From NCBI GenBank assembly GCA_036268875.1, contig DATATI010000066.1, positions 124,001 through 188,000 on the forward strand: 64,000 nucleotides of DNA, written 5' to 3'. Within the stretch, counting starts at the first letter, position 1. Each line of letters opens with the position of its first letter. The DNA is from Polyangia bacterium (lineage in GTDB: Bacteria; Myxococcota_A; Polyangia; Fen-1088). This document shows positions 19,660 to 27,900 of the stretch, piece after piece. The notes under the pieces are model-generated. The model was not told where the DNA came from and ran no database searches. It saw only the letters and a program-made list of their open reading frames with translations. Made by a program: the position numbers and the translations under genes.

Positions 19660-20387
19660 ATCGCTGCTTTCACTTCCTCGACCAGCGCTTCGAACGCCTG
19701 GGCCGGATCGGCCGCGTCGCGCACCGGACGTCCCACGACCAGATAGTCGGCGCCGTTCTCGATGGCCTGCGCCGCGGTGGCGACGCGCTTTTGATCGCCG
19801 TGCGCCGAGCCGGCGCCTTCCGCCGGACGGATGCCGGGCACCACGATGAACAGCCCAGGCGCGGCGCCGCGCGCGTGCTCTATCTCGTGTGGCGAGCAGA
19901 CCAGGCCGGCGATGCCCGCCCGCGACGCCACCCGGGCCCGCGCCCGCACCATCTCGGGGATCGTCGTCTCGATCCCCTCGGCGCGCAGATCGTCCTCGAC
20001 CAGGCTGGTGAGCACCGTGACGCCCAGGATCTTCACCTTGTCGCCGGCCGCCTCCGCCGCGCGGGTCAGCATGGCGAACCCGCCCGAGGTGTGCACGGTG
20101 AGAAAGTCCGCGTGGATGCGCGCCGCCGACGTCACCGCCCGACCCACCGTCTCTGGAATGTCGTGCAGCTTGAGGTCGAGGAACAGCTTCCCGTTGCGCT
20201 TCTGCACCAGCTCGACGGCGCGCTCGCCCTCGGCGATGAACAATTCGAGGCCGACTTTGTAGAACGCGGGCCTTCCGTCCAGGCGATCGAGGAACACCGC
20301 CAGCCGCGGCAGATCCGGCACGTCCAACGCGACAATCACCCGATCGCGCGGGGCGATCACGTGGGCCGGTGGATGCGCGCCGGACAT
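19656..20387 (-). CDS. pyrF: Orotidine 5'-phosphate decarboxylase
   Basis: A 243-aa enzyme for the last step of UMP synthesis. Motifs are RVIVALDVPDLPRL at the start of the barrel, FYKVGLELF, and the active-site FLDLKLHDIPETV (D-x-K-x-x-D). Later strands include GVTVLTSL and IVVPGIRP, then DYLVVGRPV for phosphate binding. It starts at ATG 20387, overlapping the proS stop (ATGA). The frame remains open upstream but that sequence is antisense-like shadow of proS. Confidence 0.95.
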   Translation of the reverse strand: MSGAHPPAHVIAPRDRVIVALDVPDLPRLAVFLDRLDGRPAFYKVGLELFIAEGERAVELVQKRNGKLFLDLKLHDIPETVGRAVTSAARIHADFLTVHTSGGFAMLTRAAEAAGDKVKILGVTVLTSLVEDDLRAEGIETTIPEMVRARARVASRAGIAGLVCSPHEIEHARGAAPGLFIVVPGIRPAEGAGSAHGDQKRVATAAQAIENGADYLVVGRPVRDAADPAQAFEALVEEVKAAI

Positions 20388-22105
20388 CAGCGACGCTCCT
20401 TCTGGACTTCGGCGATCACCGTCGCGGCGATGTCGGCGATCTTCACCTTGCGCACCTCGGGCGCGCGCCGCAGCTTGAGCTCGACCACGCCTTCGGCCAG
20501 ACCTTTCTTGCCGACGGCGATGCGGAACGGGATGCCCATCAGGTCGGCGTCCTTGAACTTCACGCCCGGCCGCTCGTCGCGATCGTCGTAAAGGACGTCG
20601 ATGCCGGCGCCCGTCAGTTCGCCGTAAAGCTTCTCGCACAAGGCGACCAGGTTGGTGTCATCCATCTGCAGCTCCAGCAAGGCGACTTCGTGCGGGGCCA
20701 GCGGCGTCGGCCAGATGATCCCGTCCTTGTCGTGGTTTTGTTCGATGGCCGCGGCGACGATGCGGGTGACGCCGATGCCGTAGCAGCCCATGGTCATCGG
20801 CTTTTCGTGGCCGTCGACGTCCAGAAAGGTCACCCCCATCGGCTTGGAATATTTTTGCCCCAGGAAGAACACGTGTCCGACCTCGATGCCGCGGTAGCCT
20901 TTGAAGTGGCCGCTGGCGCAGCGCGGACACCGGTCGCCGGGCGCCGACTGCCGGTAGTCACCGCAGGCGAGCGGCGTGAAGTCGCGTTCAAGGTTCACGC
21001 CGCGCAGGTGGGCGTCGGCCTGGTTGGCTCCGACGACGAAATCGGTCATGGCGCAGATCTCCAGGTCGCAATAGACGGGGATCTTCAGACCGACCGGGCC
21101 GGCGAAGCCGGTCGGCGCGCCCGTCGCCTCGCGCACCGCCGCGTCCGAGGCCAACACGACGTCGGTGGCGCCCAGCGCCTTCTTCAGCTTGATCTCGTTG
21201 ACCGTGCGATCGCCGCGCACCAGCGTTGCCACCGGCTTGCCGTCGGCCAGATAGATCAGCGTCTTGACCAGAGCGGTGGGCGGCACCTTCAGGAACGCCG
21301 ACACCTCTTCGATGGTGTGCTGGCCCGGCGTGGAAACCTTGCTCAGCGCTTCCTTGCCGGCGGCGCCGCTCGGGCGCGCCTCGCCGGCGCGGCTCTGCGC
21401 TTGTTCGATGTTGGCGGCGTAGTCGCAGTTGTCGCAGGCCACCAGCGCGTCCTCGCCGGTCTCGGCCAGCACCTGGAACTCGTGCGACAGCGAGCCGCCG
21501 ATGTTGCCGGTGTCGGCCTCGACAGCGCGGAAGGCCAGTCCGCAACGCTCGAAGATGCGCTTGTAGGTGGCGTACATGTTCTCGTACTCGCGCTTGGCGT
21601 CGATCTCGTCGACGTGGAACGAGTATGCGTCCTTCATGGTGAACTCGCGCCCACGCATCAGGCCCGCGCGCGGCCGCAGCTCGTCGCGAAACTTGGTCTG
21701 GATCTGGTACAGGTTCAGCGGCAGCTGGCGATAGCTGCGCACGTCGCTGCGGACCAGGGCGCAGATGACCTCTTCGTGCGTCGGGCCGATGACAAAGTCG
21801 CCGCCCTTGCGATCTTTCAAGCGCAGCAACTGCGCGCCGTATTGCTCCCAGCGCCCTGATTCCTGCCAGAGCTCAGCGGGAATGACCGCCGGCAGAAACA
21901 CCTCCGACGCGCCGGCGCGATTCATCTCCTCGCGGATGATGCGGGTGATCTTTTGCACCACCCGAAAGCCAAGTGGCAGGAACGAATAGATCCCGGCTGC
22001 CACCTTGCGGATGTACCCGCCGCGCACCAGAAAGACATGAGACGGAACCTCCGCCTCGGCGGGCGCTTCCTTCAGGGTCGGAACCAGGGTCTTGGACAGA
22101 CGCAT
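20387..22105 (-). CDS. proS: Prolyl-tRNA synthetase (bacterial type with editing domain)
   Basis: A 572-aa class II synthetase. The start MRLSKTLVPTLKEAP at 22105 matches the family; an in-frame start 23 codons upstream lacks family similarity. Motif 1 (GASEVFLPAVIPAELW), motif 2 (FRDELRPRAGLMRGREFTMKDAY) and motif 3 (CYGIGVTRIVAA) are visible. The insertion between motifs 2 and 3 (about residues 220-380, with EEVSAFLKVPPTALVKTLIY) is the YbaK-like editing domain that removes Ala from tRNA-Pro. The C-terminal anticodon-binding domain is present. It is the first gene of the proS-pyrF-rlmB unit. Confidence 0.95.
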   Translation of the reverse strand: MRLSKTLVPTLKEAPAEAEVPSHVFLVRGGYIRKVAAGIYSFLPLGFRVVQKITRIIREEMNRAGASEVFLPAVIPAELWQESGRWEQYGAQLLRLKDRKGGDFVIGPTHEEVICALVRSDVRSYRQLPLNLYQIQTKFRDELRPRAGLMRGREFTMKDAYSFHVDEIDAKREYENMYATYKRIFERCGLAFRAVEADTGNIGGSLSHEFQVLAETGEDALVACDNCDYAANIEQAQSRAGEARPSGAAGKEALSKVSTPGQHTIEEVSAFLKVPPTALVKTLIYLADGKPVATLVRGDRTVNEIKLKKALGATDVVLASDAAVREATGAPTGFAGPVGLKIPVYCDLEICAMTDFVVGANQADAHLRGVNLERDFTPLACGDYRQSAPGDRCPRCASGHFKGYRGIEVGHVFFLGQKYSKPMGVTFLDVDGHEKPMTMGCYGIGVTRIVAAAIEQNHDKDGIIWPTPLAPHEVALLELQMDDTNLVALCEKLYGELTGAGIDVLYDDRDERPGVKFKDADLMGIPFRIAVGKKGLAEGVVELKLRRAPEVRKVKIADIAATVIAEVQKERR

Positions 22106-22181
22106 GATGTGCGAGGTCTTAACATCGGAAAGCGTGCGCGGGAAGCCTGGCGCGAAAAGAGCCAGCGCCGCCATTCGTGGC

Positions 22182-22195: not shown

Positions 22196-24490
22196 ATGGG
22201 CCTCGGCGAGTACAACAAAAAACGCGATTTCCACCGCACCAGCGAGCCACCCGGCGAAGCGCCGCCGGGCCGCAAGGATGGCGACGGGCGCATCTTCGTC
22301 ATCCAAAAACACGACGCGACCCGCCTGCACTATGACTTTCGGCTGGAAATGGACGGCGTCCTGCTGAGCTGGTCGGTGCCCAAAGGCCCCAGCCTCGACC
22401 CGAAAGAAAAACGCCTGGCGGTGCGGACCGAGGACCACCCCATCGCCTACGCCGACTTCGAAGGGATCATCCCGAAAGGCGAATACGGCGGCGGGACGGT
22501 CCTGCTGTGGGATCGCGGGACCTGGGAGCCGATCGGCGATCCGCGCGCCGGCTATCAGGCTGGAAACTTAAAGTTTTTGTTGAAGGGAAAGAAGCTGCAC
22601 GGCGGTTTCGCGCTGATAAAGCTGAAGGGCCGCGGACCGGCGGCCGCCCGCCGGCGCGACGACGAACGAAGCTGGCTTTTGATCAAGGAGCGCGACGCCA
22701 CCGCCCGGCCCGAGAGCGACGGCAGCATCGTCGAGACCCGCCCGGAGAGCGTGACCACCGAGCGCGATCTCGACGACATCGCCGCCGATCGCTCGCGGGT
22801 GTGGCATTCCCACCGCGGGCAACTGGACGCCGCGACGATTGAGGGCGCGGTGGCCGCCCCGCTGCCGCGGGCGTTCAAGGCGGCGGTGGCGGTGGCCACG
22901 AAAGGCGCTCACGTCCCCGACGGCGAGGACTGGCTGCACGAGATGCACATCGAAGGCGAACGCCTGCTGGGCGAGATCAACGGCCAGACGGTGCGCCTCC
23001 TGACCCCGAACGGCCGGCCGGTTTCCACCGCGCGGGCCCGCCTGCTGACCCCGCTTGATCACGCGCTGCGGATGCTGCCGGTCAAGCAAGCGCTGATTGA
23101 CGGCACGTTGACTGTGTTGCGCCCGGATGGGCGCACCACCGAGGAAGGGCTGGACGCCGCGCTGGCCAATGGCGACCGCGACGGCGAAAACCGCCAGGGC
23201 AGCACCGGCCGACTGACATTCTTTGCCTTCGACCTGCTGTACCTGGACGGCCACGATCTGCGCGGAGCGACGCTGGAAACGCGCAAGCAGGTCTTGCACA
23301 AGCTGATCGCCGGCGCCGACGCGCCGCTGTTGCGGCTTGGTACCCACGTCAGCGGCGGCGGTGAGCGCTTCTTCGCCGAGGCGTGCAAGGTGGGGATCCC
23401 GGCGATTGTCTCCAAGCCGCGCGATCATCGATACCAGCCGGCGGCGAAATCGCGCGCGGCCGGCTGGCGGCTGACCCGCTGCCCAAAGTCGTCAGCGAAA
23501 GCCACGGCAACGCCGGACCGGCACCACCACCAACCAGCGCAGACGCCGCCTGCCGCCCCACCCAAATCCGCCGGCAAGACACCGGAGACCGTCGCCGGTA
23601 TCAAGCTGTCGTCGCCCTTGCGCGTGCTGTGGGGCGACCTCGGCTTCACCAAGCACGATCTGGCCCGCTACTACGAAACCATCGCCGACCGCGCCCTGCC
23701 CCACATCGTCGGCCGGCCGCTGACGCTGTTCCGCTGCCCGGAAGGCGTGGGCACGCCCGACACGCAGCCGTGCTTTTACATGAAACACGCCAATTTTTCG
23801 GTGCCCGGCAACGTCGAGCGCATCAAGCTGCGCGAGCGCAATGAAGCCAACGAATATCTGGTCATTCGCGACCTGTCGGGGCTGATGGCCCTGGTGCAGA
23901 TGAGCATCCTGGAGATTCACACCTGGGGCTCGCAGGCCGACGACGTCGAGCACCCCGATCGCATCGTGATGGATCTGGATCCCGATCCGAGCGTGAAGTG
24001 GGAAGACGTGGTGGTCGCCGCCCACCTCATCCAGCACCAGTTCGCCGAGATCGATCTGGAAAGTTTCGTAAAGACGACCGGCGGCAAGGGCCTGCACGTG
24101 GTGGCGCCGCTGGCCCCGGCGCTCGGCTGGGAAGAGGTCACGGCGCTGTCGCGCGCTGTGGCCGAGCGGATCGCCCGCGGGGCGCCCCAGTTTTTCACCA
24201 CCAACATCGCCAAGGCCCAGCGCAAGGGAAAGATCCTGCTCGATTACCTGCGCAATCACCGCGGCAGCACGGCAGTGGCGGCGCTCTCCACGCGGGCCCG
24301 CGCCGGCGCCACCGTCTCCGTGCCGCTGTCGTGGGACGAGCTGACCCCGGACCTGAACCCATCCCTGTTCAACGTCCGCTCCGTGCCGGCGCGCCTGGCC
24401 GCCCAGAAGGTGGATCCATGGGCCCGCTATTTTCGGCTGAAGCAGAAGGTGAGCGCCGCCGCCCGCCGCCTGCTCAGCGCGACGACTTGA
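22196..24490 (+). CDS. ligD: LigD-type NHEJ protein: phosphoesterase and polymerase active, ligase module degenerate
   Basis: A 764-aa protein in PE-(ligase)-Pol order. The 3'-phosphoesterase domain (residues 30-145) keeps His39, His45, Asp47, Arg49, His81 and Tyr85. The polymerase/primase domain (about 465-764) keeps DLD at 593-595, GGKGLHVVAPL, and LLDYLRNHRGST. The middle segment (about 225-430) still has ligase landmarks (FFAFDLLYLDGHDLR at 342-356; VSKPRDHRYQP) but the nucleotidyl-accepting KxDG is HIEG at 251-254 and the motif III Glu is Thr304. The OB-fold that should follow is missing, replaced by a His/Pro/Ala linker. It therefore probably cannot ligate by itself. No ku gene is in the window. 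Its end overlaps the convergent lipoprotein gene by 17 bases. Confidence 0.9.
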   Translation: MGLGEYNKKRDFHRTSEPPGEAPPGRKDGDGRIFVIQKHDATRLHYDFRLEMDGVLLSWSVPKGPSLDPKEKRLAVRTEDHPIAYADFEGIIPKGEYGGGTVLLWDRGTWEPIGDPRAGYQAGNLKFLLKGKKLHGGFALIKLKGRGPAAARRRDDERSWLLIKERDATARPESDGSIVETRPESVTTERDLDDIAADRSRVWHSHRGQLDAATIEGAVAAPLPRAFKAAVAVATKGAHVPDGEDWLHEMHIEGERLLGEINGQTVRLLTPNGRPVSTARARLLTPLDHALRMLPVKQALIDGTLTVLRPDGRTTEEGLDAALANGDRDGENRQGSTGRLTFFAFDLLYLDGHDLRGATLETRKQVLHKLIAGADAPLLRLGTHVSGGGERFFAEACKVGIPAIVSKPRDHRYQPAAKSRAAGWRLTRCPKSSAKATATPDRHHHQPAQTPPAAPPKSAGKTPETVAGIKLSSPLRVLWGDLGFTKHDLARYYETIADRALPHIVGRPLTLFRCPEGVGTPDTQPCFYMKHANFSVPGNVERIKLRERNEANEYLVIRDLSGLMALVQMSILEIHTWGSQADDVEHPDRIVMDLDPDPSVKWEDVVVAAHLIQHQFAEIDLESFVKTTGGKGLHVVAPLAPALGWEEVTALSRAVAERIARGAPQFFTTNIAKAQRKGKILLDYLRNHRGSTAVAALSTRARAGATVSVPLSWDELTPDLNPSLFNVRSVPARLAAQKVDPWARYFRLKQKVSAAARRLLSATT

Positions 24491-26444
24491 TGTCGTCGCC
24501 GTCGACGACGTAGATCAGCGGCGCGTCGACGCGGGCGTGGTCGACGCCGAACTGCACGTTGCCGGTGGTGCCTTCGAACGTGCCGGCGCCCAGCGCCTTC
24601 AACAGATCGGCGCGCGTGCGAGCCCCATGCGCGGTCGCCGCCCGCAGCAACGCCACGCCGTCGTAGGCATACGCCTCGGTGGCGTGCGGATCCTGCCCGT
24701 ACGCCGCGCGGTACGCCTCGACGAAGGCGCGGCTGCGCGGGTCGTCGCCGTCGGCGAAGAAACCGGGGGACAGCAGCGCGCCCTGGACGTAACGACCGGC
24801 GTTTTGTAGCAGGCGCGGCGACAGATCGTTCGCCGTCGACAGCAGCAGCACGTTGCGCACCTTCGGCTTGCCGGGTTCGCTAGGCGGGCGCGGCTTGCCC
24901 CACGGCTGCGGCCACAGGTCGGCCACCGCCAGGGCCGGCGCGATCAGCTCCAACCGGTCGGCGCTGTCGGCCACGAAGATCGCCTGCGGCGGCACCTTCT
25001 TGATCGCCGCCACCGCCGCCGTGAATGACGTGGCGCCGGCGATGTACGTGCCCTCGCCGGTGATGCGTCCGCCGCCGACGATCACCTCGCGCCGGAAAGC
25101 CTCGCGCATGCGCTTGCCGAAGGCGCTGTCCGGTCCCAGGATGGCGATGTCGCGCGCGCCCAGCTTCAGCGCCCGGCGCGCCAGCTCGGCCACCCGCGCC
25201 TCCGGCGAGTGGACCAGTTGAAACGCCGTCGTGCCGGCACCGGGAATTTGATCGTCCAGCGTCAGCAGCGGCAGCCCCTCTTGCGTCGCCTGGCCGACCG
25301 CCGCCGCCGTGGTCTTGCGCTCGGCGCTGCCGATCATGCCGATGACCGATTCCGTCCGCGTCAGCTCGACGACGCTGCGGGCGGCGCGATCGGGATCGGT
25401 CGCGGTGTCGCGCACCACCAGCTGCGAACCGACGCCGCCGCCCCCGACGGTGCCCAGGGCGCCGGTGGCCAGCAGCACGGCGCGCATGGCCGCCTCGCCC
25501 ACCGGCTGAAAGCGACCGGACAGCGGCAGGGCCACGCCGATGCGCGACGGATCGCCGGGGCCGGAACTTTGCGCCAGCTCTTCGAAGCCGGTGGCGTGGC
25601 GGGCGCGCGCCGTTTCGCTGTCGACGGTCTCGGCGTTGGCGGAATCGGCCTGCGCACGAAGATAGCTGCTGGCCCGCGCGCCCAGGACCGCGCGCGCCAG
25701 GCCCTTGGCCGGCGCGGCATCGAAGGCGCGCCAGGCCGCTTCGCCGGACATCTGCGCGGCGATCTGTTCGGCGCGCTGGCGGGCGTAAGCGCGTTCAAAT
25801 TCCTTGGCGCCTCGGAAGTAGCCGTCCCACAGCTCCAGGGCCAGCGGGAATTCGCCGGTGGAGGTGGCCGCCTCGGCCAGGGCGCCCCGCAGTTCGACCA
25901 GCGATTCATCCGAGCCCTCGCCGGGCTGCTTGGGCAGAAATGGTGTCAACAGATCGCGGGCGCGTGCCCCGTGACCAGCGCGCGATTCCGCCAGGCCCAG
26001 GTAATAACGAGCGCGCGACGCCGTCGTCGGATCGATTGCCGCACCGCCGACCAACGGATCCAGCAACTGTCGCGCGCCAGGCTGGTCGCCGCGGAGCAAG
26101 GCCAGGCGCGCCAGCATGATCTGCGCCGCCGGCACCGACGGGTGCGCGGGGTTGGCGCCGACGAACGCCTCCAGCGCGACGCGCGCGCCCTCGCGCTCGC
26201 CCTGCTCGAAACGCGCCTTGGCGGCGCGAAAATCCGCGTCGCCTGGTGGTTCAGCGGCCACCGCGGCGTCGGCCCCAGCATCGGGCGCGGTGCGCGGGGG
26301 CGGCTCGGCCGCGGTGGTTCCGTCGGGCGCCACCGGCGGCGGCAGCGGTTCGCCGGCGCCCAGGCTTCCCGGTTGCACCTGCGCCGGCGCCACCGTCGCG
26401 CAAGAGGCCAGCACCCAGAACACAAAGACCGTCCGCCGCACCAT
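24474..26444 (-). CDS. LpoA-like lipoprotein (TPR plus type I periplasmic-binding domain)
   Basis: A 656-aa protein. MVRRTVFVFWVLASCATVAP is a lipoprotein signal with lipobox LASC. An Ala/Pro-rich linker follows, then TPR-like helices (about 80-270; RFEQGEREGARVALEAFVGA, MLARLALLRGDQPGARQLLD). The C-terminal half resembles a branched-chain amino-acid-binding fold: RIGVALPLSGRFQPVGEAA, ESVIGMIGSAERKTTAAA, then RDIAILGPDSAFGKRMREAF. This architecture matches YraM/LpoA penicillin-binding-protein activators, which stimulate PBP1A from the outer membrane. A solute-binding role is the alternative. It is eight bases downstream of mutY on the same strand. Confidence 0.78.
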   Translation of the reverse strand: MVRRTVFVFWVLASCATVAPAQVQPGSLGAGEPLPPPVAPDGTTAAEPPPRTAPDAGADAAVAAEPPGDADFRAAKARFEQGEREGARVALEAFVGANPAHPSVPAAQIMLARLALLRGDQPGARQLLDPLVGGAAIDPTTASRARYYLGLAESRAGHGARARDLLTPFLPKQPGEGSDESLVELRGALAEAATSTGEFPLALELWDGYFRGAKEFERAYARQRAEQIAAQMSGEAAWRAFDAAPAKGLARAVLGARASSYLRAQADSANAETVDSETARARHATGFEELAQSSGPGDPSRIGVALPLSGRFQPVGEAAMRAVLLATGALGTVGGGGVGSQLVVRDTATDPDRAARSVVELTRTESVIGMIGSAERKTTAAAVGQATQEGLPLLTLDDQIPGAGTTAFQLVHSPEARVAELARRALKLGARDIAILGPDSAFGKRMREAFRREVIVGGGRITGEGTYIAGATSFTAAVAAIKKVPPQAIFVADSADRLELIAPALAVADLWPQPWGKPRPPSEPGKPKVRNVLLLSTANDLSPRLLQNAGRYVQGALLSPGFFADGDDPRSRAFVEAYRAAYGQDPHATEAYAYDGVALLRAATAHGARTRADLLKALGAGTFEGTTGNVQFGVDHARVDAPLIYVVDGDDIKSSR

Positions 26445-26452
26445 GCTCCTTT

Positions 26453-27565
26453 CTAAGTCTGATCCGTCGCCATGTCGCGTTTTCCGCGGCTTTTTGGGCG
26501 GCGCCCGGTCGCCGCCGCGGCCAGGGTCTTGCGGGTGAAGCTGGAGATCCCCAGGGTGGGCAGCTCGTCCGCCGCCACCCAGCGACGGACGTCGTCCGAC
26601 GGTGAGATCGCCTTCGCCATCACCCGCCCGACAACCGCGTATACCTCAGCCGTCAGATCGCGGTGCGTGAAGATGTGGCGCACCCGCCCACGAAACTGCG
26701 GCCGCCGGCGACCGGGCATCACGCCGCTCTGTCGAGCCGCCTGGCGTGCCATCTCGGAGGCGTCCGCCGCGCCCACCACCGTCGCCGACGGCAACGCCCA
26801 GGTGCTGGCCAGCAGCTGTCCCTTCGGCCGACGCACCAGCAGCACGCGCCCGGCCTGCGTCACGTACGCGCAGGCCACCCGCGCGGTCGGACGTTGCGCC
26901 TTCTGCTTGCGCGCCGGAATGTCAGCGGTGATTCCTTTCTTGTACGCCACGCAGGTCGCGCGCAGCGGACAAACCAGACAGCCCGGCGCCGTCGCCGAGC
27001 ACACCAACGCGCCCAGCTCCATCACCGCCTGGGTGAAATCACCCGCGCGCCGCGCCGGCACCAGCGCCTGCCCCAGCGCGCGCAGGCGCAGGCGCACCGC
27101 CGCCCCGTCGATCACCTCGCTCACGCCGTGCAGGCGCGCCATCACCCGCGCTCCGTTGCCGTCCAGGGCGAAAGTCGGCGCGTCGAAGGCGATTGCCGCC
27201 ACCGCCGCCGCCGTGTAAGCGCCCACCCCCGGCAGCGTGGCCAGCGCCACTTCGTCGCCGGGGATCGCCGCACCGTGATCCGCCACCACCGCCTGCGCGG
27301 CCTTGCGCAGGTTGCGCGCCCGCGCGTAGTAGCCAAGACCCGACCACAGCGCCAGCACGTCATCTTCGCGCGACGCCGCCAGCGCGCGCACATCGGGAAA
27401 GCGCGCCAGGAACCGTTCAAAGTACGGCAGCACTGTCGCCACCACCGTCTGTTGCAGCATGAATTCGGACACCAGGGTTCGATACGGGCTGCGCACGCGC
27501 CGCCAGGGCAGATCGCGGCGAACGCCGTCGTACCAGTCCAGCAGCGCCGCGGCCGGCGTCTTCAT
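26453..27565 (-). CDS. mutY: A/G-specific adenine DNA glycosylase
   Basis: A 370-aa base-excision enzyme that removes A opposite 8-oxoG. The catalytic Glu is in SEFMLQQTVVATV, the helix-hairpin-helix is LATLPGVGAYTAAAV, and the catalytic Asp is in FALDGNGARVMARLHG. The [4Fe-4S] loop is C-x6-C-x2-C-x5-C (CSATAPGCLVCPLRATC). A C-terminal NUDIX-like 8-oxoG recognition domain includes VLLVRRPKGQLLASTWALP. The start at 27565 overlaps the upstream DUF486 stop (ATGA). The tail is Arg/Lys-rich. Confidence 0.93.
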   Translation of the reverse strand: MKTPAAALLDWYDGVRRDLPWRRVRSPYRTLVSEFMLQQTVVATVLPYFERFLARFPDVRALAASREDDVLALWSGLGYYARARNLRKAAQAVVADHGAAIPGDEVALATLPGVGAYTAAAVAAIAFDAPTFALDGNGARVMARLHGVSEVIDGAAVRLRLRALGQALVPARRAGDFTQAVMELGALVCSATAPGCLVCPLRATCVAYKKGITADIPARKQKAQRPTARVACAYVTQAGRVLLVRRPKGQLLASTWALPSATVVGAADASEMARQAARQSGVMPGRRRPQFRGRVRHIFTHRDLTAEVYAVVGRVMAKAISPSDDVRRWVAADELPTLGISSFTRKTLAAAATGRRPKSRGKRDMATDQT

Positions 27566-27900
27566 CGAAACGCCACCACCACCGCCGCGCCGATGAGGCC
27601 GAACGACACCAGGTATTTGGGCTGCGGCCCCTCGCCCAGCCACAACCAGGCGAACAGCATGAACACCGACAGCGTGATCGCCTCCTGCAAGATTTTCAGC
27701 TGATACGCGCTCATCGCCGCCCGATAGCCGATGCGGTTGGCTGGCACCTGCAGCATGTATTCGAAAAGCGCGATGCCCCAGCTCATCAAGATGGCCACCA
27801 GCATCGGCGCCGACTTGAACCGCAGGTGTCCGTACCAGGCCACGGTCATGAACAGGTTGGAGAGAACCAGCAGCCCCGCGGTGGTCAGTCGATCGTGCAT
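27562..27900 (-). CDS. DUF486 / DMT-like small membrane protein
   Basis: A 112-aa protein, starting at ATG 27900 (MHDRLTTAGLLVLSNLFMTV). It has four predicted membrane helices and the family landmarks TVAWYGHLRF, SWGIALFEYMLQVPANRIGY and LKILQEAITLSVFMLF. The DUF486 family resembles half of a drug/metabolite transporter and its function is unknown. An in-frame start 28 codons further upstream is unlikely because it would overlap the divergent holA start. It is coupled by ATGA to mutY. Confidence 0.85.
   Translation of the reverse strand: MHDRLTTAGLLVLSNLFMTVAWYGHLRFKSAPMLVAILMSWGIALFEYMLQVPANRIGYRAAMSAYQLKILQEAITLSVFMLFAWLWLGEGPQPKYLVSFGLIGAAVVVAFR

Follow-up and report, generated by a model that had tools for sequence, protein, structure and literature searches.

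A conserved LigD of Polyangia with a degenerate ligase domain probably processes DNA ends that a separate ligase seals

LigD is regarded as the one multi-tool of end joining in bacteria. The LigD of Pseudomonas aeruginosa has the order PE-Lig-Pol, in which a 3′-phosphoesterase (PE), a ligase (Lig) and a polymerase (Pol) are joined, and the ligase domain of Mycobacterium tuberculosis LigD (1vs0, 6nhz) contains an NTase half and an OB half. Bacillus-type LigD is a Lig-Pol protein without PE. NHEJ can also be split: PE, Pol and Lig are encoded by different genes in Streptomyces, rhizobia and archaea, where ligation occurs in trans, and when the ligase domain of LigD is defective, LigC serves as a backup (PMC5124664, PMC7719229). 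Our search of open-licence papers found no LigD with an inactive or pseudo ligase, or with a dead ligase domain retained in folded form.

We analyzed a 64,000-nucleotide stretch of DNA (the window) from a Polyangia bacterium, which encodes a 764-aa protein matched by Pfam LigD_N (residues 37–142), DNA_ligase_A_M (243–420) and LigD_Prim-Pol (485–742; 290 bits). The features of its gene are collected in Table 1. The protein exceeds the NCBIfam cut-off for DNA ligase D (TIGR02776) and resembles P. aeruginosa LigD in its domain order and in the catalytic residues of PE and Pol. The PE domain scored 217.6 bits against a cut-off of 144 (TIGR02777), shares 51% identity with the PE structure of P. aeruginosa (3n9b) and has the catalytic His, Asp and Arg; the Pol domain scored 295 bits against a cut-off of 214.7 (TIGR02778), is 38% identical to the P. 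aeruginosa structure 2fao and has the three catalytic Asp residues (DLD and D683). Thus, both sets of residues are intact, as a preliminary description of the sequence had stated. By contrast with P. aeruginosa LigD, the window protein lacks the catalytic Lys, the Glu residues of motifs III and IV, the motif V Lys and the OB fold, and its ligase domain scored 97 bits where the cut-off is 227.75 (TIGR02779).

Table 1. Positions in the window of the LigD-like gene, its domains and motifs, and its two neighbours
Feature	Position	Strand	Evidence or state
Whole gene, 764-aa PE - pseudo-NTase - Pol, putatively ligase-dead LigD	22196..24490	+	ORF; Pfam LigD_N/DNA_ligase_A_M/LigD_Prim-Pol
PE (3′-phosphoesterase) domain, residues 3-167	22202..22696	+	TIGR02777; 3n9b identity; residue check
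PE catalytic segments, QKHDATRLHYDFR and EDHPIAY	22304-22342 and 22430-22450	+	intact
Degenerate NTase (pseudoligase) domain, residues 243-429	22922..23482	+	M. tuberculosis LigD alignment; predicted fold
Degenerate motif I, HIEG vs KxDG (Lys -> His251, Asp -> Glu253)	22946..22957	+	
Degenerate motif III, Thr304 replaces Glu	23105..23107	+	alignment to LigDs
Degenerate motif IV, Pro402-Ala403 replaces Glu-Gly	23399..23404	+	alignment to LigDs
Degenerate motif V, GWRLTRC replaces WLKxKC	23462..23482	+	alignment to LigDs
His/Pro-rich linker at OB-fold position, residues 430-468	23483..23599	+	predicted disordered; short NTase-Pol gap
Prim-Pol domain, residues 469-746	23600..24433	+	Pfam; TIGR02778; 2fao identity
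Pol catalytic residues, DxD and third Asp in LLDYLRN	23969-23983 and 24236-24256	+	intact
Divergent neighbour, prolyl-tRNA synthetase-like gene (proS)	20387..22174	-	kept by PE-pseudoligase gene in three other genomes, 78-85% identity
Convergent neighbour, periplasmic ligand-binding-like protein	24474..26444	-	same three genomes as proS, 55-58% identity

We examined the active site by alignment with M. tuberculosis LigD (1vs0) and with LigDs from the window's own class. In the window protein, His251 occupies the position of the M. tuberculosis nucleophile Lys481, Pro271 that of Arg501, Thr304 that of Glu530, Pro402 that of the metal-binding Glu613, and Leu426 and Arg428 those of Lys635 and Lys637, leaving motif V without a Lys. 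Where active enzymes have KxDG, DGE, EG and K-x-K, the window protein has HIEG, DGT, PA and RLTR and does not qualify as a ligase NTase. The preliminary description was exact in placing HIEG at residues 251–254 and in reading Thr304 as the replacement of the motif III Glu; the end that it gave for the region, 23480, nearly coincides with the end of the degenerate domain at Cys429. It had also noted that a His/Pro linker replaces the OB fold, and the chain indeed passes from motif V through this linker directly into Pol. We count the OB fold as absent because the gap between NTase and Pol is only 26–41 aa in the four degenerate proteins that have Pol (see below), as against at least 100 aa (median 137) in 101 Lys-bearing proteins. 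Judged by its sequence, the window protein would be unable to adenylylate, and its ligase would not be expected to work. Because it lacks the defining features of a ligase, the name DNA ligase should be avoided for this protein, which would act like the processing half of a LigD.

The window protein is a member of an old, conserved clade, which the preliminary description had not included. Among 137 distinct LigD-type NTase domains compared, the motif I Lys is present in 128 and missing in nine, and loss of the Lys and loss of the OB fold coincide completely. All nine degenerate proteins come from one class, that of the window (Polyangia, Myxococcota): the window protein, four from its family (G002, G013, G014 and G015) and four Sorangium-type proteins from another family (G297, G298, G300 and G301), of which G297 matches Sorangium cellulosum So0157-2 in chromosome size (PMC3696898). 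A view of only five such proteins proved too narrow, as further loci gave the Sorangium set. The four family relatives consist of PE and the degenerate NTase, without OB and without Pol. G297, G298 and G301 have the order PE, degenerate NTase, linker and Pol, also without OB, and the G300 protein is incomplete since a contig end cuts its gene. The motifs of the Sorangium-type proteins read HEIQxDG, LKGIVSK and WVRxSC, with the motif III Glu retained. A profile of the nine rows, run against 317 genomes of the class, scored the nine proteins at 279–354 bits and the next one, which has the Lys, at 213 bits. In a phylum sample of 377 genomes, nothing beyond the known members exceeded 182 bits, and in a wide genome scan outside the class, the Lys was kept at every locus with a readable motif I.

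Since the NTase tree (support 96) and the PE tree (support 88/91, not strong alone) both join all nine proteins, a single origin is favoured. Recent strain-specific decay was rejected given nine related proteins in two families. An assembly or sequencing artefact, or a pseudogene of a single strain, has next to no probability: the window genome is a draft of 95 contigs, but the same losses occur in nine separate assemblies, one of which is a single 14,782,125-bp contig. The preliminary description had named sequencing error as one thing that could overturn its reading; the homologues, all of which have both losses, contradict it. It is also very improbable that the proteins are still active ligases that use an alternative nucleophile or cofactor. 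While structure prediction indicates that the fold persists, neither the catalytic residues of motifs I, IV and V nor the OB fold remain, and no new nucleophile is conserved, because the residue at the Lys site differs among the orthologues (H, Q, A or E).

AlphaFold2 modelled the whole window protein with a mean pLDDT of 88.9; linker residues 432–460 fell below 50 and are predicted to be disordered. When the degenerate domain was modelled from five family sequences alone (pLDDT 78, pTM 0.77), its best solved match was M. tuberculosis LigD 6nhz, residues 451–639 (Z 18.4, 186 residues, rmsd 2.9), a match covering the NTase half only. The 1vs0 profile also matches the domain (E 1.3e-17). The predicted fold of the domain is thus that of a ligase NTase. 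The domain resembles the M. tuberculosis ligase domain in this fold and in about 28–29% identity over 186–187 residues, but matches residues 451–639 only, with the OB half absent and the active site substituted.

We then compared evolutionary rates. Between Sorangium pairs, the degenerate domain has a dN/dS of 0.23–0.41 at a dS of 0.14–0.36 (lowest and highest pairs; dS unsaturated), PE has 0.15–0.36, and the intact NTase of the separate Lig-Pol has 0.14–0.29. The degenerate domain is under purifying selection in Sorangium, a relaxed but real constraint. Selection is relaxed in the window's family, since the domain evolves faster than PE there: dN/dS is 0.32 versus 0.12 in the G013/G015 pair, and identity between the window protein and its family relatives is 39–42% versus 63–73%, which makes the domain the fastest-evolving part. 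Such rapid change would fit a passive relic, a functionless remnant that drifts toward a PE-only state after ligation has moved to another gene, as would the freedom of the motif I residue to vary. Two sister genera point the same way: their sole PE lies in PE-only proteins of 352 aa (L022, G017:C3) and 284 aa (L023, G016:C5), with Lig-Pol elsewhere, and these proteins are possibly a further step of the same reduction. We nevertheless consider a relic unlikely, as the dN/dS in Sorangium, 31 alignment columns invariant across the nine proteins, a reading frame intact in all nine and the age of the losses, common to two families, argue against it. Homology and a predicted fold that are kept, catalytic motifs that are lost and selection that is maintained would together mark the domain as a pseudoenzyme.

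The residues that are kept bear on what the domain might do. No variation occurs at E249 or R256 among the nine proteins, and at the position of K407 six have Lys and three have Arg. In M. tuberculosis LigD, the corresponding Glu479, Arg486 and Lys618 contact the base and ribose (PMC8656161). A sensor that binds nucleotide or 5′-adenylated ends without catalysis could account for this pattern, the phosphate, metal and nucleophile residues being gone. We regard such a sensor as improbable, as the kept residues may serve the stability of the fold and affinity is likely to be low without the OB fold. A broader proposal, that the NTase was converted into a non-catalytic module, maintained by selection, for docking (of Ku or the trans ligase) or for sensing nucleotide or adenylated ends, and thereby coordinates processing with a separate ligase, is offered tentatively, with a little less than an even chance of being right.

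Since nine related proteins have lost both catalytic residues and the OB fold, the sealing of broken DNA in these bacteria would have to depend on another ligase. All nine genomes have Ku genes, two of them in the window genome, and the PE of the degenerate protein is the only PE domain found in each. Contig C1 of the window genome encodes a 331-aa stand-alone LigD-type ligase with intact NTase and OB (KLDG, DGE, MEGIVSK and WLKIK), which clusters with the Lig portion of the Lig-Pol from G014. The presence of Ku and of a stand-alone ligase, together with intact PE and Pol and the loss of the adenylylation residues and OB, supports the suggestion of the preliminary description that the protein may process and fill ends but not seal them. 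A reading of the sequences confirmed intact catalytic motifs in Lig or Lig-Pol for C1 of the window genome, for G002 and G014, and for all four Sorangium genomes; in G013 and G015, Lig-Pol is known as search matches only. The Sorangium genomes thus hold the degenerate protein, an intact Lig-Pol and Ku together. Bacillus-type Lig-Pol has the architecture of the relatives' intact partners (L025, L026 and L105) and resembles this active partner, not the degenerate protein itself. The present case would share ligation in trans with split NHEJ, but there the ligase domain has moved or is missing, whereas here a degenerate NTase, predicted to be folded, stays in the processing protein.

Other ATP-ligase domains of the window genome are on contigs C9 (308 aa), C79 (380 aa) and C20 (524 aa). 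The 308-aa LigD-type ligase gene overlaps a separate Pol gene (L034, C9:13648-15293), and the 380-aa LigC-like gene is convergent with a Pol gene (L004, C79:61703-64009). On C1, a polyphosphate kinase 2 gene comes next after the intact ligase gene, in the same orientation (L128:5442-7317).

The order proS, PE-pseudoligase gene and ligand-binding protein gene is the same, with the same orientations, in the window and three relatives. Since these genes share the divergent proS and the convergent ligand-binding neighbour, we take them to be orthologues in place. In G002, the gene lies away from the proS locus, head to head with a leucyl/phenylalanyl-tRNA transferase gene (L136:7372-9461); the same transferase gene is close to Ku in the window genome (C21, L129:4385-7951), G014 and G015. 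The window gene is not adjacent to Ku, and the scanned neighbours of the Sorangium genes included no Ku or other repair gene. The ends of the window ORF and the convergent ligand-binding-protein ORF overlap by 17 bases (24474–24490). Beyond the latter, one gene away from the LigD-like gene, lies an ORF that reads in translation as a MutY-like adenine glycosylase (26453–27643, minus strand).

The absence of Pol from the four family relatives, and the Lig-Pol found elsewhere in three genomes, had raised the idea that Pol was newly transplanted onto a PE-pseudoligase in the window lineage. This idea is weakened by the Sorangium proteins in which PE, pseudoligase and Pol are joined. The window Pol groups with the Pols of these proteins and with those of the family's Lig-Pol (support 94/86, not strong alone), and a clade of the window and Sorangium Pols was not rejected (p-AU 0.225). 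Because this grouping was not rejected, an ancestral PE-pseudoligase-Pol followed by loss of Pol is at least as good an explanation as a transplant.

Taken together, we consider it likely that these proteins are conserved pseudoligase LigDs whose PE and Pol process ends, with sealing by a separate ligase and with the degenerate NTase as a likely docking platform. In this view, the losses arose a single time, in an ancestral member of the window's class: its PE-Lig-Pol LigD would have shed the catalytic Lys, the Glu of motif IV, the Lys residues of motif V and the OB fold in its entirety, while keeping the NTase core in a folded, non-catalytic form. Ku would bind the double-strand break, PE would trim 3′-phosphate or ribonucleotide ends, and Pol would fill gaps in the window lineage and Sorangium, a step that is not universal, as the four relatives without Pol show. 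The final step, sealing of the processed nick in trans, would fall to a separate, intact ligase of the LigD type, presumably Lig-Pol in the relatives and, in the window genome, the Lig on C1. The degenerate domain would most likely be kept as a platform that docks DNA or a partner, either Ku or the trans ligase.

Proteins of this kind would likely be counted as complete LigD ligases, because genome surveys score LigD domains by profile match, and TIGR02776 is passed here. The clade would represent a natural separation of end processing from sealing, in which non-ligation roles of the ligase domain, such as Ku contact and DNA positioning, and the passing of ends between proteins become directly testable; Sorangium is a culturable genus, so that genetics is possible in principle. 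If the module has indeed been repurposed, NHEJ in these lineages would be the work of a multi-protein complex around a pseudoligase rather than of one multi-tool enzyme.
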